From Cornus controversa (lineage: Eukaryota; Streptophyta; Magnoliopsida; Cornales; Cornaceae): DNA of 64,000 nucleotides. The DNA is taken from assembly GCA_026545225.1 (NCBI GenBank), contig CM048848.1, positions 48,578,306 through 48,642,305 of the forward strand, in the 5' to 3' direction. The position numbers and the translations under genes were made by a program. Position 1 is the stretch's first letter, and each line of letters begins with the position of its first letter. Below the pieces are notes generated by a model. That model searched no databases. It was not told the DNA's origin and saw only the letters and a list, made by a program, of their open reading frames with translations. Shown piece by piece: positions 14,027 to 62,225 of this stretch.

Positions 14027-14640
14027 CACTACAAGAAATTTGGTCTTTTGCTACAAGTCATTTCGTGGCAAAAAAGTATACATTTCGTGGCTGAAACGTA
14101 TTCATGACGAGAAAGGTTTCGTGGCTTAGTCGTGGGCATAGGTCTGTCACGAAATGTCATTAAGCACGACTAAAAGTTTTCGTGGCAAAATGTGAATCAT
14201 ATTGCTACGAATTTGAACTCGTGGCGAAATAAATCCTATTGCCACAAACTATCTCGTCACAAAAATGTTAATGTTTTTGTTGCCATTATCTCTTTCAATG
14301 TGAGAATTAGTCATCGCTAATTCAAACATTTTTCCACAAATTTGACCTCGTGGCAAAATACATCCTATTGCCACAAATATACTCATTGTTATATGTTAGT
14401 GTTTTCATGGCCGTAACATTCTCAATGTAGAAACTAGTCATCGCTAATTCAACCCTTTTTCTACAGAGATATTAGTTGAAGTAAAAAATTTGTCTTTTGC
14501 CACAGAGTTGATTTGTGGCTATTCTATTATTAAAAATAAAAAATAAATTTGATCACCACAAATATATCTCGTGAAAATAAACAAAAATAAGTCACAAAAT
14601 TTATCTGTGGCAATAATGATTTTAATCGCCACGACTAGTT
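14027..14640 (+). mobile_element. Left end of a CACTA-type transposon with subterminal repeats
   Basis: It begins CACTACAAGAAATTTGG, the conserved terminus of plant CACTA (En/Spm-like) transposons. About 600 bp of clustered short motifs in both orientations follow ('ttcgtggc', 'cgtggcgaaat', 'gccacaaat'), as expected for transposase-binding subterminal repeats. No matching TTCTTGTAGTG terminus was found to the right, so the element is truncated or its right end has decayed. No transposase was recognised. Confidence 0.6.
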
Positions 14641-25700: not shown

Positions 25701-26740
25701 ATTATATGGCTTGAGGCAAGCTCCTCGAGTATGGTTTGATCGCTTTAGTGGATTTCTTCTCACACTTGGATTCTTTTGCAGCACTGTTGATTCCTCCATG
25801 TTTATTCGTAAATTTGGAGATAACGTTCTTATTCTTTTACTCTACGTTGATGATATTATTATCACCTGTAATAACCAGCAACATCTCACCCAACTTATAT
25901 CTACTTTAAGTAGTGAGTTTGCTATGAAAGACTTGGGTTTCATACACTATTTTCTTGGTGTTGAAGTTACACGACAATCTGATGGACTACACTTATCACA
26001 AACCAAGTATGCGACTGACCTTCTAGACCGGGCTGGTATGGTTGATTGCAAACCCATTTCTACACCCATAGCACAGAAGAAACCTCCTGACATAGATACT
26101 TCTGAATTTGACAACCCAAATCTATATCGCAGTCTTGTTGGTGGTTTACAATATTTAACTATGACAAGACCTGATTTATCCTTCAGTGTTAACTTTGTGA
26201 GTCAATTCATGAATAACCCAACTGTTGCAAACTTTCAGGCTGTCAAACGCATCTTACGTTATGTTAAAGGAACCATTTCACATAGCATTCAACTCTTTAA
26301 CAATGACTCTCTTGATTTGTTTGCTTATTCAGATGCCGACTGGGCAGGATGTTCATTCTCTAGGCGCTCCACCACTGGTTTTTGTACATTTTTAGGTGCG
26401 ACTTGCATCTCTTGGAGTGCAAAAAAAGTAACCCACAGTTGCTCGGTCAAGTACTGAAGCAGAGTATCGTTTAATGGCAGCTACAGCAGCAGAACTTACT
26501 TGGTTGTCATTTGTTCTTCGAGATCTTGGCGTTCCTCTTTTCAAAGCACCAATTCTCTATTGTGACAATCTAAGTGCACTTCACATGATTGTCAACCAAG
26601 TGTTCCATGCAAGAACGAAACATATAGAGGTTGACTATCACTATGTTCGTGAGAAGGTTGCTGTTGGAGCCTTTGTGACTTACTTTGTCTATTCCTCCAA
26701 TCAACTTGCAGATATTTTTACAAAGCCCCTCTCCAAATAA
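22742..26740 (+). pseudogene. Inner copia gag-pol polyprotein, degenerate
   Basis: gag runs from ATG 22742 to about 23670. Protease is near 23750, integrase 24150-24770, reverse transcriptase 25290-26040 with Tyr-Val-Asp-Asp at 25843-25854, and RNase H 26320-26740. In-frame stops lie at 22826, 23522, 24749 and about 24808. Frameshifts are near 25050 (between integrase and RT) and 26430 (in RNase H). The protease reads Asn-Thr-Gly where Asp-Ser-Gly is expected, and the gag zinc knuckle has lost its second Cys (Cys-Gln-Ile-Tyr). RT itself is a long open stretch of 465 codons. The element cannot make its own full set of proteins. Confidence 0.88.
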
Positions 26741-26796
26741 CACTTTCGGTGGCTTTGTTTCAAACTGGGTCTCCAAGCTTCACCTGGACCTAGTTT

Positions 26797-26805
26797 GAGG
26801 GGAAG
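26797..26805 (+). other. Polypurine tract, inner copia
   Basis: GAGGGGAAG lies immediately before the 3' LTR, the usual place for second-strand priming. Confidence 0.8.
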
Positions 26806-27095
26806 TATTGAAGATGATATCCACAAGGAGAAGGCTAAGGATTAAGCTATACTTATCTTTTCCTATTACTTCTCTCAACAGGATTCTCTCTTAACAGAAA
26901 TCCTCCTCTGTAACAGAATCCTCCTCTGATCTTCTATCATATTTTGAATTCCTATAATGTCTCATTTTGTATCCCAAAGTAGTATATAAATATGTGAAAC
27001 TCTCTCTCAATATAACATTGAGATAGAGTGATAATTCAACTATTGAGTCTTTTACTTGTCTAAGACTCTTGCCTCTGTTTTTCAATAGTTCTATA
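26806..27095 (+). repeat. 3' LTR of the inner copia element
   Basis: 290 bp. Contains an 18-bp segment (repeating 'gaatcctcctctg') absent from the 5' LTR. It is followed at once by the GATAC target duplication at 27096-27100. Confidence 0.92.
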
Positions 27096-27100
27096 GATAC

Positions 27101-30100
27101 AACCTCCTTGACTATGTTCTTGGAATTTCCCAGTGCCCCTTCCCTGCCGGCACCTCTCCCACCGAGTTGAATAAAACTCATTGGGTTCGTCAGGACAAAT
27201 TAATTTTGAGTGTTATTCTGGCTTCCACCTCAACCACCATTACTCCTCTCATCGCCACTACCAAAACATCTCATAAGGCTTAGAAGAAACTTCACCACAT
27301 ATATGCCAGTAAATCTAGAACCCGAGCCATGCAACTAAAGGAAGAACTTACCTTGATTCAGCGAGGAAATCGTTTCATTCCTGATTATTTGTATGCAGTG
27401 AAAGCCCTCGCCGATGAGATCGCACTCATCGATCATCCAATATCCGATGATGATCTTACCCTTTATATTCTTAATGGATTGGGTTCTGATTTCAGGGAAA
27501 TTGCTTCACCAATTCGAGCACGGGAAACATCTCTGGCCTTCGAAGAGCTTCACGATATTCTTGTGGGGTATGAAAGTTACCTGCGGCGGTTGGAGTCTTC
27601 CACTCAGCAACTTGTGGCCTCTGCAAATTATTCTCATCGTCACAAGCAGAACTCTGGTTCCCATGGTGGGTCTCATCCAAAGGGCTCTTATAAGACTAAT
27701 GGGTCTTCTCAGTTTTCAGGCCAAAATAAAACTCCTTAAGGCCCATCCAAGGACAATCGCAAGTTTTCAACTAATCGGTCCACCCAAAGGTGTTACCAAC
27801 CGAAATATCAATTATGTGATCAAATAGGCCATACAGCCAAGTCTTGCTCGCAGCTTCGTCAATCAAATGTCATGGCTAACTATGCAAATACATCCAATCA
27901 ACAAAATCAGAAATGGCTTCTTGACTTTGTTGCCTCTCATAATATTACTGGTGACTTGGCAAATTTATCTATTCATTCTGAGTATGATGGCACTGATGAA
28001 GTTGTTATCGGTGATGGGTCAGGTTTGGCAGTCTCACATATTGGTTCTTTGACTTTAAAATCACCAACACGGACATTTGTTCTTCGTGATACTCTTTGTG
28101 TTCCCAATATTTGCAAAAATTTAATTTTTGTTCATCATTTTACATCTCAAAATAATGTTTTTCTTGAGTTTCACCCCTCTCATTTTCTTGTGAAGGATCG
28201 GACTACATGGGCGATCTTACTAAGAGGTGCATGTGAAAGTGGTGTCTATCATTTTTTGAATTCACTGGTGGGCTCCCCCTCTAAAATTGTTGCAAATGTG
28301 CATGAACGAAGCTCGTTTGATGGGTGGCACAAACGTCTTGGACATCCGTCTTTCAAAGTTGTTCAAAGTCTTTTTAATCATTTTTCTCTTCCTATTGTGA
28401 ACAATAAAATGAATTCTCTGTGTTCATCTTGTTCTATTAATAAAGCCCATCAACTTCCTTTTCGGCCCACAAGTTTTCAAAGTCGTGTTCCTCTTAATAT
28501 TATTTATACTGATGTGTGGGGACCCGCTCATTGTGTTAGTCTAGATGGTTCTCGCTATTATTTAATTTTTGTTGACCATTACACAAAATATATGTGGTTT
28601 TATCCCATTAATGCAAAATCTTGTGTTAAGAGCATTTTTCCTCAATTCAAAAATCTTGTTGAAAAATGGTTTCAAGTTAAAATAAAAAGTATTTACTCTG
28701 ATAATGGTGGCGAATTTATCAGTCTCAAACCGTTTCTCTCTCTTCATGGGATTAGTCACTACACAACTGCCCCTAAAACACCTCAACAAAATGGTGTATC
28801 TGAACGTCGTCATCATCACTTAGTTGAGACTGGTCTCACCTTACTTCACGATGCTAATCTTCCTCTTTCATATTGGCCACATGCTTTCCATACTGCCACG
28901 TATCTAATAAACCATCAACCAACTCCTCTCCTTCAAAACAAATCACCTTTTGAGGCTCTTTTTGGCCAAAAGCCCAATTATCTCAAATTAAAAACTTCTG
29001 GGTGTATTTATTATCCCTTAACCAGGCCTTACAATACACACAAAATCCAGTCCAAGTTCATTCTGTGTGTCTTCATCGGGTATTCTCTAACCCAAAATGT
29101 TTACCATTGTCTCGAGCCCACAACAAATAGAGTTTATCTCTCTCGACATGTGCTTTTTGATGAAAAAAAACTATAGCCTCCATCGAATCCTCTTCTTCTC
29201 CGTCTGCATCATCTTCTTCGAATGCTACCCAACCTGCATCTGTTCCAGTGGCTCCACCGGCTACACCAGTGTTTTCGGAACCTGTTATCACTGCGGATCC
29301 ATCTCCTCCAGGTAATTTCTCTTCCTCTTCCTCTCCGATTTCAAATTCTTTAGATCTTTTCAATACTTCATCTTCGTCGGCCCCTTATGTGATTGAAAAT
29401 AATTGTGAATCTGCTCATTCATGCACCTTATCCTGCTTCACAATCCGGTCTGATAGATACACAATTGTCTCCTTCACCTCACTCTGTTTCTTCCTTAGGT
29501 CTGATAGACATACCACCATCCCCAAATCGCCGAACACACTCTATGACTACCCGATCCATGAATAATATTTTCAAACCCAAACAACTCAATATTGTCACTA
29601 AACACCCTCTTCCTCAAAGTCTAGAACCAACATGTGTGACCCAGGCCTTATCTATGCCACTGTGGCGTGCAGCCATGTCTAATGAGCTCACTGCTCTCAT
29701 GAGACATGGCACTTGGGACTTAGTTCCACCACCAGCAGGTTGTAACCCCGTGAGTTGTAAGTGGATTTTTTGTGTTAAGAGAAAAGCCAATGGCTCAATC
29801 AATCGCTTTAAAGCTCGACTTGTTGCCAAAGGGTATCATCAAAGACCTGGGATTGATTAAACAGAAACCTTCAGTCCTGTTGTAAAACCAGCAACCATTC
29901 GGTCTGTGCTTACTGTTGCTGTCATGCAAGGTTGGACTTTAAGACAAATGGATGTTAACAATGCATTTTTGCATGGTCAGCTTACTGAAGATATTTATAT
30001 GAGCTAACCTCCAAGGTTTAAGGATCAGTCAAAACCCAATCATGTGTGCAGGTTACGTAAAGCCATCTATGGGCTTAAACAGGCCCCTCGGGCTTGGTAT

Positions 30101-30165
30101 TCAACTCTTAAGGATGCTCTTATTCATCTTGGCTTTCATAACTCTAAGGTTGACTCCTCTATGTT
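27101..30165 (+). pseudogene. Outer copia gag-pol, middle part
   Basis: gag resumes at 27101 in the original frame, with a TAG in place of a conserved Trp codon near 27281. A zinc-knuckle remnant lies at 27790-27850 with its first Cys replaced by Tyr. The protease motif near 27930 reads Asp-Phe-Val-Ala-Ser-His where Asp-Ser-Gly-Ala-Ser-His is expected. The integrase GAG-pre and DDE core (28320-28930) are open, with Ser-Asp-Asn-Gly-Gly-Glu near 28700. A frameshift near 29170 ends that frame. RT begins near 29620, has stops near 29859 and 30004, and is cut at 30165 by the TRIM. Confidence 0.85.
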
Positions 30166-30416
30166 TGTAATACCCCGCTCCAACACATGGTATGATATTG
30201 TCCGCTTTGGGCCTAAGCCCGCACGGTTTTGCTATTGGGTTTTTACCCCAAAAGGCCTCATACCATTTGAAGAGAACATACTACATATAAGCACATCCCC
30301 TTTTCCACACCCAGGCGATGTGGGATTGAGCACCCTGTACCCTGTCAGTGTGGTAGCTCAGCCCAGTGTCTGTCTATGCACCCGCCCACTCACACCCGTC
30401 CACAAGGGTTACTACA
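30166..30416 (-). repeat. TRIM LTR (left on the plus strand)
   Basis: 251 bp with TG...CA ends on both strands. On the minus strand it contains 'aatcccacatcgcc' upstream of a 'ttatatgta' TATA-like motif, an arrangement seen in plant TRIM LTR promoters. Confidence 0.9.
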
Positions 30417-30490
30417 ATCCACCCCCCTACGAGGCCCGACGCCCTCGTCGGCACACTTACTTCCGGCTGGGTTCAGGCTCTGATACCAAC

Positions 30491-30741
30491 TGTAATACCC
30501 CGCTCCAACACATGGTATGATATTGTCCGCTTTGGGCCTGAGCCCGCACGGTTTTGCTATTGGGTTTTTACCCCAAAAGGCCTCATACCATTTGAAGAGA
30601 ACATACTACATATAAGCACATCCCCTTTTCCACACCCAGGCGATGTGGGATTGAGCACCCTGTACCCTGTCAGTGTGGTAGCTCAGCCCAGTGTCTGTCT
30701 ATGCACCCGCCCACTCACACCCGTCCACAAGGGTTACTACA
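30491..30741 (-). repeat. TRIM LTR (right on the plus strand)
   Basis: 251 bp, differing from the left copy only at the 'gcct(a/g)agccc' position. Followed directly by the ATGTT target duplication. Confidence 0.9.
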
Positions 30742-31745
30742 ATGTTCATTTATCGAAGTGGCTCACCTTATATGTTATTTGTTGGTATATGTGGATGATC
30801 TTGTGCTTATTGGGAATGATTCAAGTTTTGTGCAATCCATTATCCAGCAACTTGGTGCTAAATTTTCATTGAAAGATATGGGCAATCTTCACTATTTTTT
30901 GGGAGTGGAAGTTATCCCAACTCGTGCAGGTTTATTCTTGTCACAGCATAAATATGTTCGTGACTTGCTGTCCAAAACAAACATGGTTGGTGGTAAGGAT
31001 GTTTTAACTCCTTTATCTACTAGTACATCCTTAAAAGTGGTTGATGGTACTGCTTCTTTTGATAGTACTGAATTTCGTCGTGTAATTGGGAGTCTTCAAT
31101 ATCTTTCACTTACTCGTCTTGATATTTCTTTTGCCGTTAACAAGTTGTCTCAATTTATGCACAAGCCCACAAATACACACTGGACAGCAGTTAAAAGACT
31201 ACTTCGTTACCTAAAACAGACTATATTCCACGGTATTCAGCTCCAAAAGGATACCACTTGGAACCTCACAACGTATTCTGACGTTGATTGGGTTGGGAAT
31301 ATTGATGATCGTACCTCTACTTCAGCTTATATCAGCTTTCTAGGCCACAATCCCATCTCCTGGAGCTCCAAGAAACAACAGGCTGTTGCACGCTCATCTA
31401 CAGAGGCTGAATACAGATCACTAGCTAATGCAACCTCGGAAACAATGTGGTTACTTAGTCTTCTCAATGAACTCGGATTCCCACTTAAAGCTCCCCCTTC
31501 TTTGTTGTGTGACAACCTTGGTGCCACTCATCTCAGCTTCAATCCAGTTCATCACTCTCGAATGAAGCACATCCAAATTGATCTTCATTCTGTACGTGAC
31601 TTGGTTCAAAAGGGCACTCTTAATGTCAAGCATGTTCATACCTAGGACCAGCTTGCGAATTTGCTGACCAAACCTTTGTCTAGGCAGCGTACTGAAATTC
31701 TCAGATCCAAGATTAGCCTTACTAACGGAAGTCCTATCTTGCGGG
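30742..31745 (+). pseudogene. Outer copia RT-RNase H, 3' part
   Basis: This continues RT after the TRIM, with Tyr-Val-Asp-Asp at 30788-30799, the conserved Tyr-Phe-Leu-Gly-Val-Glu-Val motif near 30890, and RNase H from about 31260 to 31680. RNase H landmarks seen are Ser-Ser-Thr-Glu-Ala-Glu-Tyr near 31397, Cys-Asp-Asn near 31510, and the terminal Leu-Leu-Thr-Lys-Pro-Leu-Ser near 31665. A TAG near 31643 interrupts the end. Apart from that, this stretch is open over about 300 codons. Confidence 0.85.
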
Positions 31746-39431: not shown

Positions 39432-42400
39432 CTAAAGCCTTCGAATTGGATTTCTGTAAGCTCCTCTCTTCTGTATTATTCTTCTCAGAAAAACTCGATC
39501 CATATGTTTGTAGTACCATTGTCTCCATCTTCTAGAGAACACAAGTGGCCAAATGATAATTGCTAAGCCCACCATAAATCCCAATGTTGCATTTAAGTAC
39601 ACCTCTGTCTCCAAGATTGAATGCCCATCTTTGAATATTGGGGGTGGATCTTGTGCGACTTCAACATTATTGCAACACAAGTTCAAAGGGAAGCCGCATA
39701 GTCCAGGATTCCCTAAAAAGGATGTGTCTGAGAATGTCTGAAACTGGGAACCTGTCGGAATTCTTCCAACCAAAAGATTGTATGACACATTCAAGAGCGA
39801 AAGAAATGTAAGACTTGCAAGTTGTGTCGGGATCATCTCGATTAGCATGTTCCATGAAAGGTCTAATGACTCGAGATTCTTCAAGTTTCCTAATGACGTT
39901 GGAATTGAGTTGTTTAGCATGTTGTGCGATAAGTTTAGAACAACAAGCACTTTGAGATTTCCAACCGTATCTGGTATTTTTCCATCAAATCTGTTGCTTG
40001 AAAAATCAATAGATGTAAAGATAGTTAAAATTTTCACCAGCTCCACGGATATCCCTTTGTAGATGACATCCACTCGATTTGAATAGTACTCAGAAAATCC
40101 AAAAAAATAACCCAGATTATTGAACTTTGGTTGGGCATTATCCTCGTCAGTCATCATTGCTTTCAAATTTGAGAAGAAACTTGATGATAGAGCGCCGCCA
40201 AAGTTGTTGAAAGCTAAGTCAATGATATGAAGATTCCACAAGCTTTTAATATTTCCCCCTTGGCAGTTAATGTCTCCTTCGAACCTATTAGAGCGCAAAA
40301 CTAAAATACGTAGACTAGATAAGTTCTCCAAAAAGCAAGGAAATCTGTCACTTATCATGTTATTGCCAAGGTTTAAAACCTCCATCCCTCTACAATTTGA
40401 CAATGATTTCGGAACCCGCCCTTGCAAATGATTACCATTGAGATCCAGACTCTGTAGACTACAGTTTTTCGGAAATATACTCAAAATATTTTCACTAAAT
40501 CTGTTATTTCGCAGATTTAATACTCCAAGAGTACTAGTACTCCTTTGGATCAAACATGCTGGTATTGTGCCATTTAGACGATTATTAGACAAATCTAGAA
40601 CTTCAAGGTTTTCCATCCTGCATATTGATTGAGGAATGTTTCCATTGATATTGTTATTTGAAAGAGAGAAGAAATAAGGATTGGTGAGGACATTACCAAT
40701 AGTAGGAGGGATAGAAGAGCTAAAACTATTATTTGAGAAGTCTAGGTAATTAACTGGTCCTCTTGGTATTGGGATTTCTCCATGGAGTTGGTTTGAGTGT
40801 AGGTCAAGGATACTCAAATCAGATAGGAGAATAACATAGGGTTCTTGAAAATGAGATAGGAGATTGTGAGAGAGATTCAAGTAATAAAACCCTCCATTCC
40901 CAACATCCCAAAACCAGTTTGGTATTTCCCCTTCAATTTGGTTGTCCGAAAGGTCCAAGTCAGCCAGCAATGGTTGCTTCCTTAGATGAGGAAAACTTTG
41001 TAGCTTGCATGAAGCCAATTTCAATATTTTAAACTGAGGTATGGAAGACAAGCTTGAACTATTGGCACTTGTTGTATGGATTGACAAGCTGTTGTATGAA
41101 AGGTCAAGGACAGAAAGATTGGTCAGCCTATAAAACTTTTCCAGTTGTATTGTGCCACTGAAGTTGTTGGAATTGATTACAAGGTAATAAAGGCTTCCGA
41201 GCTCAAAGAAAGACATGGGTACCGATCCTTGTAACTTGTTATTGTTCAAAACAATAAATTGGAGCAGAGAGGAGGAAGCATTAGAAAATTCATCAACTTG
41301 ACCATCAAATTGGTTAAATGAAAGATCAATGGTTTCCAGCAATGGGAGTTCAAAAAGAGATGATGGAATGCTTCCACTAAACATGTTATTCGACAAATCC
41401 AAATAAACAAGTTGAGTAAGGTTTGCCATTGAACTTGGGATTGGTCCACTGAATCTGCAATTTTGAACATCTATCGAAGACAACATCTGAAGGTTACCAA
41501 TAGAATCTGGTAATCTCCCAGAAAAATTTGTGTCGCTAAGAATCAAGGTCTGAAGAGGTCCATTTTGCGAAAATTCTGGAAAAGAACCCTCAAGTAATTC
41601 ATTGCCGGATAAAACAAGCGTACGTAGAGTTGGTATGTGGAAGATATTTTTCGAAAATGCTCCTTGCAAATTACAATCGTCGAGATATAATTGTGTCAAA
41701 TTGGTGAATTTTGCAAAGAAATTTGGAACTGGGGAGGGGAAATTGTTCCCGCTAAGATCGATCAGAGAAATGGACCGGAGATTCTCAAGGGAAGAACAAA
41801 GGGGGCCTGAGAGATCACAATAAGGCAAGCTCAAGACTTGCAGATTAGGGAGTGAAGAAGATATGGCTTCACACCATTCCTCTCCCTTGGACGATATCTT
41901 TACTTTACCAAGACGGAGTTCCGTGAGCTTTGTCAGATTCTGAACAAGCAATTTTAGATTTGAGTTGCCAAGTTCTAAACCGTCGTTCAAAGACAAATCC
42001 AGAGAAACTAACCTTGTCAAGTGCGAAATTCCAATAGGAATTTGCCCGGTGAACCAAGCATTTGACAAATTAAGATATGTCAAACTAGTTAGCTTCTCAA
42101 ACCCAGAAGGAGAGGAGTTGAAGAAATTATTAGCAAGATTCAAACCTTGAAGATGTCGGAGACGGAAGAGACTAGTTGAATTGTTAATGATTCCTCCAGA
42201 AATTGATTCATCGCTCAAGTCGAGACCAACAACATAACCATAACCCGTATCATCATCGCACGTTACACCACCCCACTCGCAACAATCCGTGTTATGATTC
42301 CAGAGCACCAGCTTGGTTGAATATGAAGAGTCGAATATGAGACTCTTCTTGAACTGGAGCAACAAACTTTTCTGATGCTCTAAACATTGGCTCTCAACTG

Positions 42401-42479
42401 GAATACAGAAGAAGATTGAGACTACTGTGATTGTGGTTGTGGTGATAAAGAAAAGCCATGGCAAGACTGAATACCTCAT
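39432..42479 (-). CDS. Receptor-like protein with extracellular LRRs (RLP, Cf/Ve1-like)
   Basis: A single-exon gene of 1015 codons, apparently intact. The layout is that of plant RLPs, cell-surface immune or developmental receptors without a kinase domain. It has a hydrophobic signal peptide (residues 1-30), a Cys-rich N-cap with Cys-Cys-x-Trp-x-Gly-Val-x-Cys, and about 31 LRR units by hand count. The island domain (about 770-815) has Tyr-Tyr...Lys-Gly, and four closing LRRs follow. Then come a short C-cap, an acidic spacer, one transmembrane helix (about 960-981) with a Gly-x-x-x-Gly motif, and a basic 33-residue tail (Arg-Arg-Trp-Arg-Gln-Trp-Tyr). Length is normal for the family. RLPs of this kind usually signal with SOBIR1-type kinases; ligand and partner here are unknown. 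Broken copies nearby mark it as the survivor of a cluster. Confidence 0.93.
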   Translation of the reverse strand: MRYSVLPWLFFITTTTITVVSIFFCIPVESQCLEHQKSLLLQFKKSLIFDSSYSTKLVLWNHNTDCCEWGGVTCDDDTGYGYVVGLDLSDESISGGIINNSTSLFRLRHLQGLNLANNFFNSSPSGFEKLTSLTYLNLSNAWFTGQIPIGISHLTRLVSLDLSLNDGLELGNSNLKLLVQNLTKLTELRLGKVKISSKGEEWCEAISSSLPNLQVLSLPYCDLSGPLCSSLENLRSISLIDLSGNNFPSPVPNFFAKFTNLTQLYLDDCNLQGAFSKNIFHIPTLRTLVLSGNELLEGSFPEFSQNGPLQTLILSDTNFSGRLPDSIGNLQMLSSIDVQNCRFSGPIPSSMANLTQLVYLDLSNNMFSGSIPSSLFELPLLETIDLSFNQFDGQVDEFSNASSSLLQFIVLNNNKLQGSVPMSFFELGSLYYLVINSNNFSGTIQLEKFYRLTNLSVLDLSYNSLSIHTTSANSSSLSSIPQFKILKLASCKLQSFPHLRKQPLLADLDLSDNQIEGEIPNWFWDVGNGGFYYLNLSHNLLSHFQEPYVILLSDLSILDLHSNQLHGEIPIPRGPVNYLDFSNNSFSSSIPPTIGNVLTNPYFFSLSNNNINGNIPQSICRMENLEVLDLSNNRLNGTIPACLIQRSTSTLGVLNLRNNRFSENILSIFPKNCSLQSLDLNGNHLQGRVPKSLSNCRGMEVLNLGNNMISDRFPCFLENLSSLRILVLRSNRFEGDINCQGGNIKSLWNLHIIDLAFNNFGGALSSSFFSNLKAMMTDEDNAQPKFNNLGYFFGFSEYYSNRVDVIYKGISVELVKILTIFTSIDFSSNRFDGKIPDTVGNLKVLVVLNLSHNMLNNSIPTSLGNLKNLESLDLSWNMLIEMIPTQLASLTFLSLLNVSYNLLVGRIPTGSQFQTFSDTSFLGNPGLCGFPLNLCCNNVEVAQDPPPIFKDGHSILETEVYLNATLGFMVGLAIIIWPLVFSRRWRQWYYKHMDRVFLRRIIQKRGAYRNPIRRL

Positions 42480-42534
42480 CTTTTAGGCAACAATAAGTGA
42501 AGTTGAAGTGAAGAGCTATGGTTACGGGTGGTTG

Positions 42535-45840: not shown

Positions 45841-46712
45841 AGATTCCAAAAATTTTGAGAGACCCTAGAAAGACTTTCAAATGGGTGCCCTTTATATATA
45901 AAGTTTAACATGCGCATAAATTTTATAGGGGTGCAAAAATTTTCTTATTGCTAGGTCCTGATAACTCATAAGCATTTATTATCCATGATTGAATTAGTGA
46001 ATTAGCTTATTAGATTATAGCTAATGGCCTATATATGCAGCTGTTATAGTACTGAAAACAAATCTATTAATATATTATATATATGTATGAATGTCTTTAT
46101 GCATATTCAATTACACAATTGTAACAAAATTAATGGAAAGGTAATTAAATATGAAATCTAAAACATAATTAACCATAAAATAACCTTAACAACTTGAATC
46201 ACAGTAAACAACTTTTGTGCATTCAATATCCAAAAGAAACACATTAATTAAGCTGATAGAGAAAACGAACCAAATCAAAGGATTGAAAATTTTAAACCCT
46301 TAATTTTTGAAGAAAAAAAATTTTCAAACCCTAAATACCAAATCAAATTATGATCAAAACTCCCCCTTTTCAAACCCCAAATAAAATAACCTTAACAACT
46401 TAAATCACAACAAACAACTTTTGTGCATTCAATAGCCAAAACAAACACATTAATTAAGCTAATAGAGAAAACGAACCAAATCAAAGGATTGAAAATTTTA
46501 AATTCTTAATTTCTGAAGAAAAAAAAAATTCAAACCCTAAACCACAAATGATCAAAGTTCCCCCTTACCTAAGAGACCAAAATGAGTTGTTTGCTGCTGG
46601 AATAAAGAAAGAAGAAGAAAAATGAGAGAAAACGAGTTGCTTGCTGCTGGCGTGAAAAAGGAAGTAAAAAACAAGTTATAAGGAAAAAAGAAGAAAAAAA
46701 CAAGTTATTAGT
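45841..46712. repeat. Spacer with a ~150-bp direct repeat
   Basis: 46180-46320 and 46384-46530 are near-identical ('aacaacttttgtgcattcaata', 'gagaaaacgaaccaaatcaaa'). The rest is AT-rich, and 46590-46700 is purine-rich. No gene recognised. Confidence 0.55.
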
Positions 46713-47110
46713 CTTCTGCGGGTGTCCATCCATACGTGGTGGCTTTAAGATAGAGATGGGGGTTTCCATCTCTTGTTAGTCTAATGCGGTTGTCCATCCA
46801 TACGGGTGGTGGCTTTAAGATAGAGATGGGGGTTTCCATCTCTTTTTAGTCTAATGGGGGTGTCCATCCATACGGGTGGTGGGTTTAAGATAGAGATGGG
46901 GGTTTCCATCTCTTATTAGTCTAATGCGGGTGTCCATTCATACGTGGTGGCTTTAAGATAGAGATGGGGGTTTCCATCTCTTTTTAGTCTAATGGGGGTG
47001 TCCATCCATACGGGTGGTGGCTTGGAGTTTCCATCTCTTATTAGTCTAATGCGGGTGTCCATCCATACGGGTGGTGGCTTTAAGATAGAGATGGGATTGA
47101 CTCCAAGTCT
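46713..47110. repeat. Minisatellite derived from the RLP promoter (6 units of ~66 bp)
   Basis: Six units read roughly 'gcgggtgtccatccatacgggtggtggctttaagatagagatggg...' and end 'ccatctct(t/a)ttagtctaat'. The core 'tacgggtggt(g)gcttta' and the closing 'ttgactccaagtc' match the TATA-proximal promoter of the intact RLP (42521-42565). One unit lacks about 20 bp. A single diverged unit stands alone at 44037-44110. Confidence 0.75.

Positions 47111-47638: not shown

Positions 47639-47682
<44 letters not shown>
47111..47682. other. RLP upstream-like DNA, then AT-rich spacer and (AT)n
   Basis: 47130-47215 repeats 'acttgactccaagtct' three times, and 47240-47330 resembles 43955-44000, so RLP upstream DNA continues to about 47330. 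The rest is AT-rich, ending in a perfect (AT)n tract (47640-47682) directly before the CACTA terminus. Confidence 0.5.
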
Positions 47683-47685
<3 letters not shown>

Positions 47686-47718
47686 TACAAGAATTTTAGC
47701 TTTCAGCGACACGCTTTT

Positions 47719-47908
47719 TACGGCGGGCTCGTGTAGCCCGTGGTGGAAAGTAATTTTTTACGGCGGGCCCATGCAGCCCGTGGTAGAAAGTGATTTTCTA
47801 CATCGGGCCTAAGTAGCCTGTCATAGAAAGAATTTTTTACCACGGTCGACTTGGCCCGTCGTAGAAAGTCACTTTCCACCACGGGCTTAGCCCGTGGTGG
47901 AAAGTTTT
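47719..47908. repeat. Left subterminal repeats of the CACTA element
   Basis: About four units of 'gggc...agcccgt(g)gt(g/a)gaaagt' in alternating orientation, GC- and CpG-rich against an AT-rich background. Confidence 0.8.
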
Positions 47909-48856
47909 ATTTTTTATTGTAATGAGTTCAATTGTTCCCTAAATATGGATCTAAATATGGAGAATTCTCCCCCTCTGTCCTCCTTCGTCTTGTGCGCCAG
48001 CTACGTCTTCTACTTCATTTGAATCTTTCTACTTCGCCCCTTCCCTATTTACTCCATGAATTAGCGTCGACCTCTCTTTTTTTCTCTCTCTTCTGTCTTT
48101 CTCTTCCTTCGGAGATAAGGGTCCAATGGTTTCCTATCCTAGTGGGCTCGTCGCCACTAGGCAGTCATCTTTGATCCTGATCGGCCGAACTACCACTGCA
48201 AGAAATGAGGTTATGGCGCTAAAATTTTGGCCCATGTTGATCTCCCACCTTCTAACAGTTGTGAAGCCCTAGCTACTAAAAATCCCCAATTCGCCGCCTC
48301 CTCTGTCTCAGGATCAAGATGCCAGGGCGAAACCCCTTTCTCGTCGCCAATCGAGATGCTAGGGCCAGACGCTAGGTTGCATCAATTCTGCTTCCAGGGG
48401 TGATCCCGTCGCCGATCGAGACGCTAGGGCGAAATCCCTTTCTCGTCACCGATCGAGATGCTAGGGCCAGCTTGGAGCGCCTTTTCCAACCTTTATGTAC
48501 TGGTATCTTTAGAATAGGGCTGATTGATCCAACTCGTAAGTTTTCAGATTCAATCTTCTTGTTTTTCTGTCCTTGTGTAGGTTCCATCTCTTTTCTCTCT
48601 CATTCTCATCGCTGAACCCAAATCGAATGGTTCTTTGAAGAAGTAGCAAGAAATCTCTCTCATAATTAACAGATTTTGATTTTAGTATTTAGATACTCTA
48701 ATTTGATGTGAGAAATGTGGGATTGTTTGGAAATTATTTCATATTCTGATACCCCACCCCCCACACATACACATATATATATGCAATCTCTTGCTTAGGG
48801 TTTGTTCGGATTTTTTTTGAATTTTGTTGGTTATTTCCTGGAATTCTTATTAATTT

Positions 48857-48908
<52 letters not shown>

Positions 48909-49084
48909 CAGCAATAGTTAATTTTTATCATAGCATCTTATGACCAATTCATACCTTCAGTGTCGACCAGCTCACTTTTCTCTGTTTGTTTTTCTGCTCA
49001 ATGTTAATCATAGGCATTTCTTCTTCTGATAATCATATAACGGAGATCTTCTAAAAGAAATATAACTTTTTGGGTGGATTTTTC
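47909..49084. other. Leader-like interior of the CACTA element
   Basis: Pyrimidine-rich sequence (47960-48120) is followed by a GC-richer part with two copies of 'cgccgatcgaga(t/c)gctagggc(g/c)' (48318-48375 and 48405-48475). A CACTGCAAGAAATGAGG near 48194 resembles a mutated CACTA terminus. An (AT)n tract lies at 48859-48906. It could be a captured 5' leader, but no exon is recognised. Confidence 0.35.
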
Positions 49085-51365
49085 AATAACAAGAGTTCTA
49101 GTTCTAACCTCAACCATGTTTAGAAGTTCAAGAAATCTTTTGAGTTTTCAAAGACTAGTACTTCTATTGTTCAAGTTTCCATAAATAGAAAAGATTTGTT
49201 ATCTATAAAAATGTGAAGGGAGACACCAAGGGTGATAAACATTCAGGAAATGGAATTAATCCTACTATCAGGTATACATCAGTGACTTTGGCATGGCACA
49301 AACACTTCTAGTTCCTCATTTCTTCACTAAATCTATAGAGTAATTAGAGGTCATATTATACTGATACGATCTTTAATTAATTTCTTTAATCAAGCAGGGA
49401 GTGGTTTCAATCCATTTTGGATTTTTGGGTATCGAAGAAAGAATAAGAACACAAGTTTCTCAACAAATACTTGCTGCAGATGAAAATCTTCCCTCGTCTG
49501 ATATTGCATTTGAGAAGGGAAAAATGGTGATTGAGCAAGGTAATCAGTCCTTTATTCTGTCCAGCTCATTTTTAGGACTCTTGGAGTATCCACTATTATT
49601 GGATTATTTTTCCAGTGCCTATAGTTACTTTATGCTGCAACAAGTTGCATATTACTCATTAGTAACTAAAAAAATTTCTTGATCTCATGCTTATTTTCCT
49701 TGGTCTACTTTGTGCTTGATATGCTTTTTCAAAAAATGATCATAAGCAGCATGTGAACAAAAATGACTTTGCGGCACCAGATCCATCTCATATCTCGAAT
49801 GCAACACTGCCTGATCAAAATGTTGTAAGCGGTGGGACCACTGAATTGGTGGAAGGCACAGAACATGGAACATCTACTGTTCAAGGACTTGTGTTGCCCG
49901 GTCATCATATAATCAATGTAGGAGAGGAACCAGGCGATGCAATTAAACAGAAAATACAGGTTAAGGACTCTTAAGTAATGATTTTAGTCTTTTAAGGGAG
50001 TAATGTTAAGAAATTGTCATTTGGAGATACATTCCAGAAACTCTGAAGTGTATATATATATATATTCTATAATCTTCTATTTAGTATCTTATCACTTTAA
50101 GGTTGGCAGCTATCACCAACATTAGTAAGAATTTTTTTAGGAAGTTGTGATACATATTGAATAAAAAATTGGAACTTGTGTAGATGAAAACCCCATTAAA
50201 GGGGCTGCACTTCCCACAAAACCAGAGAGTGAAATTAAAGAGAGAAAGAATGTTGAAGCTAAAAGCCTGAAGGTATTTAAACTATAATCTCTCTGCAACT
50301 CTTGCTAACTGTGTCTAGTTGTGCTATTCTTCTCCAATTCCCATTTAGTCTTATATTTGACAATAGGATATTTCAGAAGTGGATTATTAGTACGTACTTA
50401 TGAATCAGAACTGGATTAGCCATGTGTATCATATATCAAAACACAGTCCAATGTGAAATTTAGTCTTGACCTGCTCGAGATTAAATCATTAGTTTATAGT
50501 GCCAATTGATTGAAGTTCCAATGTTCTGCTAAGATTATCATGTATAAATTAGTTACAATTTTCAATTGAGATTAGTGTAGATGGTAAGTTAATGGTTAAG
50601 GGCTTCTGTTAATATTCATTTGCATATTTTTCTTATTACAATCATTTGCCATTTAGTCTAATGCATCATGCACATGACTTCCTTAACATATATTTGATAT
50701 ATCAGACATTATTTCAAAACATATATAATAATGCAGGAGATGGTGCAACGAGTCTTGAAGCACGGCAAGTCAAACCAGTAAAACCAATACCTACTGTAAG
50801 TGAAAGAAAAGGTTTTGATACCATAAAAAGCATTGTCTATGGTGGTTTAGTGGAATCAATTGCAAGCCTAAGTGTTGTGTCATTTGCCGCTGCTGCTGAT
50901 GCTACCACATGTAAGTGTTCAGAACATCTGTTTTCATTATGTTTCATTTCCAAGTCAATTACTCATCAGCTTCCTTTATATCGATGTTATACATTTTAGC
51001 CCGTGTTTACATTCAACAGAGAGGTAATAATATATCAAAGAAGTCTCTGATAAATTAAAGCAGCAGTTGGTAATTGTGTTCAAAAGATTATATTAATGCC
51101 AATCTTTAGGTTATTTGTATCAGCTAAATAAGTTATTTGTAACTAACAAAATGAGATGCCATGTGTCATGGAATATATCTGTAATACAAATTGGTGGAAC
51201 TCAAATTTGTTGTAGTTGTTCATATTCCGTTTTTCTGTCCTTTGATTTCATGAAATAGTTTACATTAATTTGCTTAAAGATTTTGTCAAGTGGTTGCAGT
51301 GAACGTACATTGTAGCTTTGGGATTGGCAAATCTGATTGGTGGAATTTTCATCATTGGTCATAAT
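49085..51365 (+). pseudogene. MEB/vacuolar iron transporter-like gene fragment, multi-exon
   Basis: Six exon-like blocks separated by GT...AG introns: about 49085-49271, 49398-49539, 49750-49959, 50184-50272, 50737-50910 and 51300-51365. The first four encode a hydrophilic acidic region. The fifth ends in Ser-Ile-Val-Tyr-Gly-Gly-Leu-Val-Glu-Ser and a Ser/Ala-rich helix. The sixth reads Leu-Gly-Leu-Ala-Asn-Leu-Ile-Gly-Gly then Ile-Ile-Gly-His-Asn. This matches the start of the CCC1/VIT membrane domain as found in 'membrane protein of ER body' (MEB)-like proteins. The first block has a TAG and a frameshift. The remaining membrane helices are absent, so no transporter can be made. The assignment is from memory of the family and should be tested by search. 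Confidence 0.6.
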
Positions 51366-51390
51366 GTGAGTAAGATTCCATGCCAACATT

Positions 51391-51391
<1 letters not shown>

Positions 51392-51450
<59 letters not shown>
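51392..51450 (+). repeat. (CT)n(AT)n compound microsatellite
   Basis: About 17 CT units followed by about 12 AT units, directly after the last MEB-like exon. It may mark the junction between captured segments. Confidence 0.9.
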
Positions 51451-52192
51451 AAGCAGTTTTATATAAGGCTGCATTTTATATATATATGAAATGCAGATGT
51501 GGTTTATGAAAAACTCTGATTGACATGTCATAATCTTTCTATAATTCTGTGTCAACATGTATGATTTACATTTCAGGCTCTTTGAGATTATTATTTAGAT
51601 ATCTTGTCCAATTAGAGCACTGACAGATCTACATGGGGCTGAGTGGGGGCACGCTCCACTGATTATGTATTTATTTATTTATATTAAACACCTAAAATTT
51701 TATTAAATTCTAGTAATCTTCCCCACTGAATTTTTACTAAAACAATCCTTTTTTGGTAGTTTGAATTTTTATTTTATTTTATTGTTTTTCAAGGGAACTG
51801 TCACTGAATTAGATTGTCAATCTTGATTCCATGTCGACATTTGCATTGAAAGGAGTTAAGCTATGTCCAATTTGTGGTCCTAAGTTACTCGCAATTGTGT
51901 TCTCTAGCAACATGTGAGTGGTGCTATAACATGCAACTTGTCAGAGGAACCACTTCTTGTGTGCTCATCTGCTAGTAATTTTGCTTGTATTAGTGAATTA
52001 TTGTGTTCTTAGATTTTTTATTGTTTTTTCGCAACTTATCTTGTTGCTTCACTTTAGCATTGGGTTTTTCTTTTTGTTGACTTACTTTAAATGCCCGCTG
52101 AAAATAGTTCAAAATTAGTAAGCCTAGTATATAAATATTTTCTGATAGTTGTTCCACAAAATGGAATTTTGACGCCTTTCTTCTTATCCCCC
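51451..52192. other. Non-coding link between captured gene pieces
   Basis: T-rich, intron-like DNA without a recognisable exon. 51600-51730 resembles the 'ggggctgagtgggggcacgctccact...' text seen at hAT-type ends, but no paired end was found. Confidence 0.35.
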
Positions 52193-52269
52193 ATGGCAGC
52201 AGACACTGCTTTTGACTGGATTGTCATAACTTCTCCTGAAGCAGGTTTAGTTTTTCTCGATGCTTGGAA
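52193..52269 (+). pseudogene. Uroporphyrinogen-III synthase (HEMD) exon fragment
   Basis: One exon-like block reads [12 protein letters not shown], then Val-Phe-Leu-Asp-Ala-Trp-Lys, followed by a GTAAGG donor. This is a strongly conserved segment of plant chloroplast uroporphyrinogen-III synthase, which closes the tetrapyrrole ring in heme and chlorophyll synthesis. A pyrimidine tract and 'ccatggcag' precede it as a possible acceptor. No other HEMD exon was recognised up to 53000, so the fragment is non-functional. It lies in the same orientation as the MEB-like and DXS pieces. Confidence 0.7.
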
Positions 52270-53026
52270 GTAAGGATTACTTGCTCATGAAACACTTCCC
52301 TTAAAGGGGATTTTTTTTTTCTAAATATATATTTGGGTGCTCTGTGATCCTGAGTAGCTTCTGCACTCTCGGAAACTTATGAACTGGCTGAAGTATAGAA
52401 GTATGTGTTCACATCATTGATTTAAGATGTATTTCCTAGATACTTGTTTTGTTATACAGTAACAGTGTTAAAGAAAGTGAAACATAATTCTAAATTTGGA
52501 GCTGAATAGATCCAAACAATTGCAATTGCCGCTAAATACTTTGGTTCTGCTGCATAGAAGCCCAGGAAGTAGTGATGCTAACTATCACTCTGTATTCTTA
52601 TTGCTTGCTTTAGAGATAAAAAGAAAGAGAATAACTTGCTTGCTTCTGCCTCATTTTTTTCCATTCTCAATAATACCAGAGAATCCAAAATTCCTTTTCT
52701 TTTCTTTTTTTCCTCCGTCCTCAGAAACCAAGATGAATCCATGTAGTACGTCACAGTTTAGTTGGAGTAAGGCTTGTTGGGTTGAATGTTCTCATCAAGC
52801 ATACAAGTAATCAGTTCTTATTGAACCCATTGGTTTATTTGAATGCTTTTTTTTATAACAGACACTTTATTTTACATGTGCATTTGGAGAGTTCTTGAAT
52901 CTCTTCTTCATTAATGGATTAGGAACCAGATAGATAATATCTAATTTGACATTTTTGTAATTAGGTACACACTCTTGTTCAAATTTTGATCTCTATTCTG
53001 ATCCTTCTCTGAATCAACTTTTTCAG
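52270..53026. other. Intron-like DNA, possible unrecognised exons
   Basis: T-rich sequence with two short exon-like islands (about 52500-52552 and 52728-52808, the second preceded by 'cctccgtcctcag'). I could not match either to HEMD or DXS. The last 50 bases form a good polypyrimidine tract ending TTTTTCAG at 53026. Confidence 0.35.
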
Positions 53027-53176
53027 TGGCGACTGATTGTTTTACCAGACAACTACATAGAGCATGCTTCACCAAAGGAGCAGCTTGCTCTTGCAGGGCT
53101 AAGTGGACACCACATTGCTGCAACAGCATTGAGTCTGCTCGGACGTACCCGTGAAGCTCTCCTTTTGATGTGCTAG
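53027..53176 (+). pseudogene. 1-deoxy-D-xylulose-5-phosphate synthase (DXS), last exon
   Basis: After the acceptor TTTTTCAG, 49 codons plus a TAG are fully open. They read Trp-Arg-Leu-Ile-Val-Leu-Pro-Asp-Asn-Tyr-Ile-Glu-His, later Glu-Gln-Leu-Ala-x-Ala-Gly-Leu-Ser, His-Ile-Ala-Ala-Thr and Leu-Leu-Gly-Arg-Thr-Arg-Glu-Ala-Leu. This is the conserved C-terminus of DXS, the first enzyme of the plastid MEP isoprenoid pathway. Only the final exon of an enzyme of roughly 700 residues is present, so it has no catalytic capacity. The sequence after the stop (to about 53270) looks like captured 3' UTR. The frame is undamaged, suggesting recent capture or chance. Confidence 0.85.
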
Positions 53177-53892
53177 GGGAGTGGTTTCTTTCTATCACTG
53201 TGGATAAACCAAATAGATTGAAGCTGTAGAGCAAGAAAGAGGGAAAGGTGGATCAAAGCTCAAGAGTAACATTTACTCTACTGATGCCTATTTTTACATT
53301 TTGGAATTCATCAATTATGTCTATTCTTTCATCATCTTTTGTCAGTCACACAATTCTCTAGAACCCCCAAAAACAAAGGAACTCAAAAAAAAAAAAAAAT
53401 CTTTGTTCGTCTGCAGCTGAAAAAGAAAATTTTGTTTGTTTGAAGAAGCACAATGCATTGTATTGGCATGTAATTAGCTGGAAAGTTGTGGCTCAAAGAA
53501 AGGTGGAACTCTGGTGTAGTTGGTGCAACTTTTTGTAATTACATGAAATGTATGTTTTATATCTCTTAACATAGTGAAAGCAACTACTCTTTCTAACACA
53601 ACTACTCTTGTATTGTGAGATCTAAATTAGTTTTTATTTTAATTTTTTGAGTGTTACAATAATTATTTTAGTATAGTTGTGTTATGCATTTAAGCAAAGT
53701 ATTTTAGTTTTTTAATGTAGTTTTGATATAGCTTAATGGCCTTTTTAAGCTACAGGTTTTTTTAATTGAATTTGGTTCTTTAAATTAGATTGAGCAGAAT
53801 TATTTTATGCCCTCATGTATGCATATACTCTGGTTAAGGTGTTAGGAACCACCAGGCATATAATTTTTTTTAAAAATTAATAAACTTTCAAC
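53177..53892. other. 3' UTR-like and AT-rich DNA before the right subterminal repeats
   Basis: 53177-53560 reads like a plant 3' UTR (T-rich, with a 'ttttgtaattacatgaaatg' stretch). The rest is AT-rich. No exon recognised. Confidence 0.4.
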
Positions 53893-54190
53893 CACGGGCT
53901 TAGCTCGTGGTAGAAAAATACTTTCCACCACGGGCTCAGCCCGTGGTAGAAAGGTTTTAACAGTAGCAAAAAAATACTTTCTACCACGGGCCTAACCTGT
54001 GGTGGAAAATGAACTTTTTACCACGGGCGCAGCCCGTGGTAGAAAGTCCATTTTCCACCACGGGCTGGGCCCGTGGTAGAAAGTCAATTTTCCACCACGG
54101 GCTGGGCCCGTGGTAGAAAGTCTATTGGCAACTACGACACCGGATACCACGGCGGGCCAAGCCCGTGGTAAAAGCCCTTTTTGCCCGCCG
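53893..54190. repeat. Right subterminal repeats of the CACTA element
   Basis: About seven units of 'ccaccacgggc...gcccgtggtagaaagt', each palindromic, more numerous and better preserved than on the left. The motif series ends at GCCCGCCGTA near 54190. Confidence 0.85.
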
Positions 54191-54762
54191 TATATATTCT
54201 CAGAATCATAGCCCTTTATTTCATTAATTGGACAAATTATTTACAGAGAAATTTTATAGCAAAGATCTTTGCCTCTTAACTATTTTGATTTGGGTCTGTT
54301 TGCAACAACGACCCAAATCAATTAAGTACATTTAATATGACATTGTTTTATTGGGAGTTGTTTTGATATTTTACATATTACTTTATTCGTTTCAACTCCA
54401 TAATAGGGGCAATTTAGTAATTTTATATTATAAATTAATGAAGATTTTAACCATCGTATGATAAAAGGGGCTGGCATTTTGCACAATTTGGAAGATGAAG
54501 ATGGTTTTTGGCTCCAAAATAGTTCACTAGGTTTGTTGCAAAAGGTTAATAGTTAAAGAGAGTTTGTTAAAATAGCGTAATGTGTCAAAAGGGTAATTTC
54601 GTCATTATCAAAGTCACTTGAAGGGGGTAATTTGTCAAAAACAAAATAGTACAAAGAGTTTTAATGCAAAATTGTAAGTTGAGGGGGATTTTCAGTAACT
54701 TGAGGTATAATTAGGGGGTTTATCTGTAATTTATCCAACAAAATATGACAGGGCAATTCAAT

Positions 54763-55651: not shown

Positions 55652-56824
55652 TTATTCTATATATTCAACCAATCTATCATTCATAAATTGATCTCCCATT
55701 TGATTACGCAATTCATTCCTTACAATGTTCATAGCAGAAAATATCCTCTCCACAGTGGCAGTCGCGACTGGTAAGATAAATGCCAACGTCAAAAGAAAAT
55801 ACACCAATGGATACTCCTTGTCTTTTTTTGTCTCAACCATTCTTCTTGCAAAAGCGAAAATTACTTTCAACCCTTCAAAACCACCAGAGCACACATCAAG
55901 AATATAAATATGAAGCTGAATATCAAGTTCTATGAGCTTGTTTGCAGAAAATTCATTTTGATAATATTTGGCAAGACAAATTATCTTTTGATTGTCAAAA
56001 GTAAAGAATGCATCATTTGAACATAGACATGCCACACAAAGAAGTAACTCAGTATTTGCCTCACTGAAATGATTATTTAGCTCTTAAAGTTGCATATTTA
56101 TGACAGAATCAAACAACTCAACACGATAGTAATGCAAGTTTGTCATTTCTTGCACATTACGTTGTGGTCATCCCTGAACAAAGAACACATCATCAATGTT
56201 GGAAACATCAATCCCATTTTTCTCACAAAAAGAAGAAACTTCATCAAGTAAAGAATCTCATCCATCTTCCCTCATCATTTGTAGACATTGCTTACATACT
56301 TTGACTAAAGACATGGCTTTCACGATATCTTGATCTTTTCTTTGTAGTGTTTTTGACAATTCATTTGTAAATCCCTACATTGTCTTCATCAAATGGAGAC
56401 TGAATACAAAATTAAAGGATTGTATCTACTCAAGTAGAATAACTGCTTTATCTCTTTGATCGAATTTCACTCCATCCACTTCAATAATCTCAAGAACACC
56501 AATTACAGATGAGAATATTGTAATCAAACTAATCAAAGTACCATAATGTGAGCCCCAACGGGTGTCTCCTGCACGTATAAGAGAAGTACTTTAATTTAGG
56601 CCTTTTCCACTTCAAAGCTCGCCATTGTTACGTCCCTCAATAACTTCGGCAATTTTTTTCTCTCGAATCATATCATAACATTTACATGAGACTCCAACTA
56701 CATTCACCACATTAGCAACTCATACGAAAACAGCAACAAGAGCCAACTGAAGTTGGTGAGCAAAATAATGAACATAAAATGCAATTTCATTCTCTTTTAG
56801 AATAAGTGTTTTGAGACCAATTAA
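55652..56824 (-). pseudogene. hAT transposase, C-terminal half
   Basis: The last ~127 codons (56035-55652) form the hAT dimerisation region, with Ala-Thr-Val-Glu-Arg-Ile-Phe-Ser-Ala-Met and a stop after Val-Glu-Tyr-Ile-Glu. Further left in the protein (56820-56650) the minus strand reads Gly-Leu-Lys-Thr-Leu-Ile and Tyr-Phe-Ala-His-Gln-Leu-Gln-Leu-Ala-Leu-Val, the conserved middle of TTF-finger/DUF4371-type hAT transposases. The stretch between them contains stops, for example near 56710 and 56085, so the gene is dead even without the insertion. Confidence 0.8.
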
Positions 56825-60884: not shown

Positions 60885-62225
60885 ATGGAATCAAATCAAG
60901 AGGAATTTGAAGAGATGGAAACACATGCATTACTTGCTATTGCAGTTTGCGGAGTGACTACCTATTATCAAACTTTTATTGTAAAAGAACCATGCAGGAA
61001 TTCAATTTATATTGGACACCAATTTGTAATGGACGTATTAAATGAACATCATAAACGCTGTCATGAATTATTTCGAATGGAAAGACACGTGTTTAGGCGA
61101 TTTTGTCAAGAGTTTAGACAAAGAGATTTATTAGAGGATAGTCGTGAGCTTACTGTTGAAGAGCAAATGGCCATATTTCTTATGACCATTGGTCATAACT
61201 CAAGAAATAGAATGTTGCAAGAGCGATTTCAACACTCTGGTGAGACTATCAGTAGACATTTTAACAATGTCTTAAAATCGGTCATAATATTTGCCATGTC
61301 GGTTATTGTTCCTCCTTCTTTTGATAATATCCCTAGTCATATACGCAACAATCATAAGTATTGACCTCATTTTTGGGTAATTGATTTATATTTTAAAAGT
61401 TTTTTCATGATTATTTATATACTTATTTCAACCATGTAACATATATCAATTTATGTTTAGGGTTGTGTTGGTGCAATTGATGGAACACATGTTGATGCAG
61501 TCATTCCAGTAGATAAGCAACTTGCATTCCGTGGACGTAAAGGAGATTGCACACAAAATGTCATGGTTGCTTGTTCATTTGACATGCGATTCACATTTGT
61601 TTGGGCTGGGTAGGAGGGCTCAGCTCATGATTCTCGCATATTTAATGAAGCCATTCGTAGGCCAGAAATCAACTTTCCAAAACCTCCAAGTGGTTCGTAT
61701 TGTCATCCTAAAAATAAAATTTATATACTTAAATATTTTATTTTGTTAACCACAATATTTTCTTTTATAGGTAAATATTATGTTGTTGACGCTGGATACC
61801 CTAATATGGAAGGATATTTAGCACCATATAAAGGAGTGCGTTATCATTTCCAAGAATTCCAAAGAAGTCGCCAGCTAAGAGGAATTAGATAATCTTTTAA
61901 TTATGTTCATTCGTCATTAAGAAATGTAGTTGAACGTTGTTTTGGTGTATGGAAAGCTCGTTGGTCACTTTTAAAATGTATGGCTCCTTTTTCATTCGAG
62001 ACACAAAGATTGATTGTAGTTGCGTCAATGGCACTACACAACTATATAAGGCAAGAAGCAATAGCCGATACTGAACTTCGACAGTATGATGAGGATGAAG
62101 GTTATCTTGGTGACAATGATAATATTGACAGACAAACTTATGGCACAGTGGACCCACAATATCAGACTGAAATGAGCATTATACATGATGGAATCGCCGC
62201 ATCAATATGGGAAGCAACTCAATAA
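60885..62225 (+). pseudogene. PIF/Harbinger transposase (DDE_Tnp_4)
   Basis: Three exons: 60885-61376, 61461-61692 and 61771-62225, with good donors and acceptors. Exon 1 has the N-terminal helix-turn-helix region (Phe-Arg-Arg-Phe-Cys, Val-Glu-Glu-Gln-Met-Ala). The catalytic triad is visible: Asp in Ile-Asp-Gly-Thr-His (61479-61481), Asp in Ser-Ala-His-Asp-Ser-Arg (61629-61631), and Glu in Val-Glu-Arg-Cys-Phe-Gly (61932-61934). Stops at 61362 (TGA), 61611 (TAG) and 61890 (TAA) inactivate it, but there is no obvious frameshift. The acceptor 'ttaacag' at 60876 suggests a leader intron. Confidence 0.9.

Follow-up and report, generated by a model that had tools for sequence, protein, structure and literature searches.

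The 64-kb stretch of Cornus controversa DNA analyzed here, which we refer to as the window, contains at 47683-54191 a sequence of ~6.5 kb with a CACTA-type left end, a subterminal repeat array on either side, and three plus-strand exon-intron pieces of host genes between the arrays. The pieces come from genes for a membrane-protein-of-ER-body-like protein (MEBL/VIT), uroporphyrinogen-III synthase (UROS), and 1-deoxy-D-xylulose-5-phosphate synthase (DXS), and they comprise five collinear MEBL exons, one UROS exon, and the DXS 3' exon (Table 1).

Table 1. Features of the element, in window coordinates
Feature	Position	Strand	Evidence
Left terminal inverted repeat (TIR), CACTACAAGAA	47683..47693	+	Exact match, directly 3' of (AT)21 microsatellite
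Left subterminal array, palindromic units	47715..47907 (end approximate)	.	Repeat and motif searches, folding
57-bp direct repeat pair (48312-48368 and 48414-48470)	48312..48470	.	89.5% identity; probably element sequence
MEBL exon A, internal frameshift	49398..49539	+	P0193 residues 210-231 and 228-259, two different frames
MEBL exon B	49750..49959	+	P0193 residues 259-339, E 3.6e-9
MEBL exon C, 3' end out of frame with exon D	50184..50272	+	P0001 residues 216-245, E 5.2e-6
MEBL exon D	50737..50910	+	P0001 residues 252-298, E 8.7e-12; P0193 residues 402-459, E 2.7e-9
MEBL exon E from native acceptor, apparent 4-bp insertion	51300..51365	+	P0001 residues 301-323, E 1.4e-4
UROS, one internal exon	52200..52269	+	P0025 residues ~101-123 of 305; E 9.8e-11 for 52184-52270
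DXS 3' exon including stop codon	53027..53176	+	P0003 through residue 477 of 477, E 2.9e-23
Right subterminal array, ending in GCCCGCCGT (54183-54191)	53884..54191	.	Repeat and motif searches
Junction, expected place of right TIR; AT-rich instead	54192..54203	.	No TIR; anchor distances

The left end has the exact TIR expected of the CACTA (En/Spm) superfamily and adjoins an (AT)21 microsatellite at 47641-47682. Exact copies of CACTACAAGAA occur only twice in the window, at 14027 and 47683, and each is followed by a repeat array. Allowing up to two mismatches, we found 31 sites in the window against 25.3 expected; because this is chance level, near-matches are uninformative, and the case for the left end therefore rests on its exactness and on the array behind it. 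One such near-match, CACTGCAAGAA at 48194-48204 inside the element, differs from the TIR at one position and could be a nested end, yet near-matches of this kind are at chance level. The left part of the element also holds the 57-bp direct repeat listed in Table 1. The second exact end (14027-14200) carries a different subterminal unit, of the TTTCGTGGC type, with a tandem row at 14059-14105, and probably belongs to another CACTA family.

Subterminal arrays, a further hallmark of CACTA (En/Spm) elements, are present on both sides, and both are built of palindromic units of ~37 to 40 bp around CACGGGC..GCCCGTG. With up to three mismatches, this palindrome occurs eight times in the window against 0.04 expected, and all eight copies lie within the two arrays. 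When six array stretches were folded as DNA, four folded better than all 200 of their shuffles, and the other two were equaled by 12 and 4 shuffles. The exact left end, together with CACTA-type arrays on both sides, thus bears out the sequence-only reading that a CACTA-type element occupies 47683-54191, and its outer coordinates fit apart from a missing right terminus.

That reading had implied a complete element, which the right border does not support. The closing sequence of the right array, GCCCGCCGT, mirrors ACGGCGGGC, which begins 37 bp inside the left end, and the sequence that follows it is AT-rich (ATATATTCTCAG) with no CACTA terminus. We found no TTCTTGTAGTG-like end near 54191, and when the reverse complement of the first 45 bp was aligned to the downstream sequence, its best score was equaled by 184 of 300 shuffles. 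A TIR-like site at 56339-56349, considered as a right end, has two mismatches, lies 2.1 kb away, and has no array before it, and we regard it as a chance match. As to a 3-bp target site duplication, the left flank is the (AT)21 tract and the right border is missing. The simplest reading would be that the element inserted into an (AT)n microsatellite and that ~37 bp at the right terminus were lost later. Since a matching right TIR is absent, we place the element within the CACTA superfamily as a truncated remnant only.

The element is probably nonautonomous. A Pfam search (E ≤ 1) of all 31 stop-to-stop frames of at least 55 amino acids detected no transposase, returning a weak HEM4 match and chance-level families only. 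Absence of its own transposase in frames of that size, with coding DNA from host genes enclosed by the ends, is what is expected of a Pack-CACTA or Pack-TYPE element. Its ends could formerly have been mobilized by a transposase supplied from another locus; because ~37 bp of the right terminus have apparently been lost, it is probably immobile now.

Without a right TIR or a target site duplication, the shared repeat unit is all that ties both arrays to one element, and this counts against our reading. Two different CACTA elements or ends might instead flank a patch of gene fragments assembled in another way, such as capture by a Helitron or a mutator-like element (MULE), or repair that drew on ectopic DNA. 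Consistent with this, nothing at the right border links the two ends, and the left array has a period of 40 bp with CGGCGGGC variants, whereas the right array has mostly a period of 36 to 37 bp. However, units of the left and right arrays match one another at 67 to 79% in either orientation (best E 4e-19), and the gene fragments take up the greater part of the interval that separates the arrays. We therefore consider two separate elements improbable, and we conclude that the locus is very probably one nonautonomous Pack-type CACTA transposon remnant, truncated at its right end, whose cargo stems from three separate captures at the DNA level.

The gene matches themselves were examined by searching proteins of relatives (six queries) against the element with tblastn. 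The E values obtained were 8.7e-12 and 1.5e-10 for MEBL, 8.6e-11 and 9.8e-11 for UROS, and 2.5e-23 and 2.9e-23 for DXS, compared with best control values of 0.16 in the rest of the window and 0.15 in 50 dinucleotide shuffles of the element. We also compared the joined exon translations with ~5.8 billion proteins, scoring the 7,996 candidates that shared the most words. Among these scored candidates, 79 matched at E ≤ 10: 6 aligned to the MEBL part, 17 to the DXS part (one of them unlabeled), and 56 carried the UROS domain PF02602. The best match to the MEBL part was from Cornus florida (E 5.3e-22). Over the respective pieces, DXS identity was 92% in Citrus and 94% in Actinidia, and UROS identity was 96% in both Fraxinus and Olea (E 0.001 to 0.002). 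Cornus and Nyssa provided the top MEBL matches in a search seeded with a Cornus protein, and Cornus also came first for the window's own pieces, a pattern that would by itself suggest an asterid host, perhaps near Cornales. A solved DXS structure, 7bzx, matched the DXS piece at E 6.5e-12; a Protein Data Bank search with the UROS piece retrieved no UROS. In family scans of the short pieces, HEM4 matched the UROS piece without reaching the family cutoff (E 0.013 and 0.044), and the other families were at chance level. The protein search, which had full-length relatives among its targets, settled the donor identities. The three matches, first recognized from the sequence alone, withstood both proper searches and shuffled controls.

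Only parts of each donor gene are present, and they span 3.8 kb of the interval between the arrays. MEBL exons A, B, and D follow the donor order in the C. florida MEBL protein P0193 (residues 210-259, 259-339, and 402-459, respectively). As the exons match internal residues of P0193 and P0001 in order, the captured MEBL stretch is a mid-gene segment with introns, lacking both the start of the gene and the part encoding the C-terminal membrane portion. Exon C has a second match at residues 179-206 of P0193, in a copy of the segment that lies further upstream, because P0193 carries repeated segments; exon A- and exon C-type segments recur in the N-terminal half of this protein, as if pairs of exons had been duplicated within the gene. 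Judging from their splice-like borders, the UROS and DXS pieces are presumably single exons in their donors. Retention of the introns supports capture at the DNA level.

Most splice sites of the pieces are canonical. The acceptor proposed for an exon at 51316 is an AG inside coding sequence that restores the frame by chance, the native acceptor being at 51300. Read from there, exon E has its apparent 4-bp insertion and then a stop codon. The MEBL piece as a whole carries two or three frameshifts. The match of exon A to P0193 is split over two frames, and the break between exons C and D is probably a single base in a run of A residues, to judge from P0193. With the sites used, exon B joins neither A nor C in frame, which may point to other splice sites. 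Neither the join of exon E to UROS nor that of UROS to DXS keeps the frame, and the second of these reads DAWNGD and then a stop. Of the five MEBL exons tried, only exon D enters UROS in frame, with exon E skipped; exon A was tried with the frame of its first half only, and that of its second half would fit as well. No route through the sites used keeps all three frames, and because the UROS-DXS join is out of frame, these sites yield no three-part fusion protein, contrary to the idea of an in-frame fusion of the three pieces. The gene pieces are pseudogene fragments; if the element were read through, they could be spliced into a noncoding chimeric RNA or could feed small RNAs.

These results bear on whether the locus might be a transcribed chimeric gene, kept by selection, that makes a new protein from the captured exons. 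The mostly canonical splice sites and the open path from exon D into UROS would suit such a gene, but it is made highly unlikely by the frame break between UROS and DXS, by the frameshifts in exons A and E, and by the fact that no database protein, judged by its label, joins all three pieces among the 79 matches from the 7,996 scored candidates. It is also highly unlikely that a transcribed same-sense array feeds small RNAs from the UROS and DXS pieces that jointly dampen the donor genes for tetrapyrrole and plastid isoprenoid (MEP) synthesis; were this so, one dead element would act as a regulator of two pathways.

All three pieces lie on the plus strand, as had been noted from the sequence; three independent pieces would share one orientation by chance in 1 case in 4. 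The donors had also been described as unrelated genes that are not known to be neighbors, and we compared their positions in relatives. Linkage was judged by eye where two families seemed to come from one assembly, with sequences told apart by length alone; the entries compared were 90% clusters, and two of the sets were the best 120 of 300 and the best 120 of 272. In chromosome-scale assemblies, UROS and DXS were on different sequences in seven of seven cases (Camellia CsSME, Malania, Telopea, Macadamia, Smallanthus, Liquidambar, and Sesamum calycinum), as were MEBL and UROS in six of six (Cornus florida, Malania, Smallanthus, Fraxinus, Actinidia eriantha, and a Camellia sinensis assembly). 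MEBL and DXS differed in eight of nine (Malania, Smallanthus, Bertholletia, Juglans regia, Juglans microcarpa x regia, Magnolia sinica, Cichorium endivia, and Salix purpurea), the exception being Diospyros lotus, in which both were on sequences of equal length (54,509,687), with their separation not given. All three families were listed only in Malania and Smallanthus, on different sequences in each. Scaffold-level cases (Macleaya, Papaver bracteatum, Olea var. sylvestris, Actinidia rufa, Sesbania, and Ambrosia) also differed and say little; Papaver somniferum, Populus alba hybrids, Olea subsp. europaea, and Helianthus, apparently represented by different assemblies or merged clusters, were left out of the count.

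Because every pairing compared except one places the genes on different sequences, separate captures are likely, whatever their order and mechanism, which we infer rather than observe. That the pieces are instead remnants of a native gene cluster has next to no chance of being true: the Diospyros lotus pairing could speak for it, but the other assemblies compared place the genes on different sequences, and the locus holds partial genes only, packed between CACTA arrays. The lesions give no basis for assigning different ages to the captures: the UROS and DXS pieces (220 bp) carry none, compared with ~3 (2 of them inferred) in 681 bp of MEBL exons, and the probability of finding none at equal rates is 0.38.

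Multidonor capture by CACTA elements has precedents, so that the three-gene combination is not in itself the novelty it was first taken for (PMC1947982 and PMC8903248). In soybean, Tgm-Express1 is a 5.7-kb CACTA element made up of five unrelated gene fragments and giving rise to many chimeric transcripts (PMC1947982). It resembles the Cornus element in combining several unrelated gene fragments with exons and introns kept, at a similar scale (5.7 versus 6.5 kb). However, the gene that hosts Tgm-Express1 in one of its introns is expressed, and chimeric transcripts of the element were cloned, whereas the Cornus element has other donors, lacks a right TIR, and is known from its sequence alone. 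Pack-CACTA elements of maize, rice, and Arabidopsis likewise enclose coding DNA from several loci between nonautonomous CACTA-type ends, but they were recognized through paired TIRs, target duplications, and clustering of copies (PMC8903248), and the present element is placed without these. CACTA-like elements that have subterminal repeats and contain pieces of host genes are also described in the consulted sections on Chenopodium, where these pieces occupy the 5' region, ahead of the coding sequence for the transposase (PMC8978399); no such coding sequence was seen here.

As to mechanism, PMC13317346 proposes that aberrant excision of neighboring elements creates a hybrid element around chromosomal DNA and that a different route, as yet undiscovered, may be required when the captured genes are unlinked. 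The CACTA mention in PMC12549080, the only one among the papers listed on this combination, concerns another insertion. Among the papers listed, our literature search found no report of a MEBL, UROS, and DXS mix in a CACTA element, nor of CACTA gene capture in Cornus. The Cornus element clearly exemplifies a type of gene shuffling that was already known, multidonor CACTA capture, and is not a new phenomenon. It would represent a clean instance in which a single CACTA-type element took up pieces serially, retaining introns and splice sites, from three donors of nameable families. It adds a case whose exact junctions are places to look for chimeric splicing, and it leaves the general picture unchanged.

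The neighborhood of the element holds other repeats and one gene-like frame. Just upstream, at 46708-47095, is a tandem array of a 70-bp unit (~4.6 copies, 92% matches), and pieces of copia-type long terminal repeat retrotransposons with gag, integrase, and reverse transcriptase domains lie at 22829-31645. Downstream, a hAT dimerization domain at 55652-56083 on the minus strand (E 2e-5) and a DDE_Tnp_4 endonuclease at 61893-62225 on the plus strand (E 8.5e-8) mark remnants of two further DNA transposons. On the minus strand at 39432-42482, a 1,016-amino-acid stop-to-stop frame has leucine-rich repeats and a leucine-rich repeat N-terminal domain and resembles a plant receptor-like protein.
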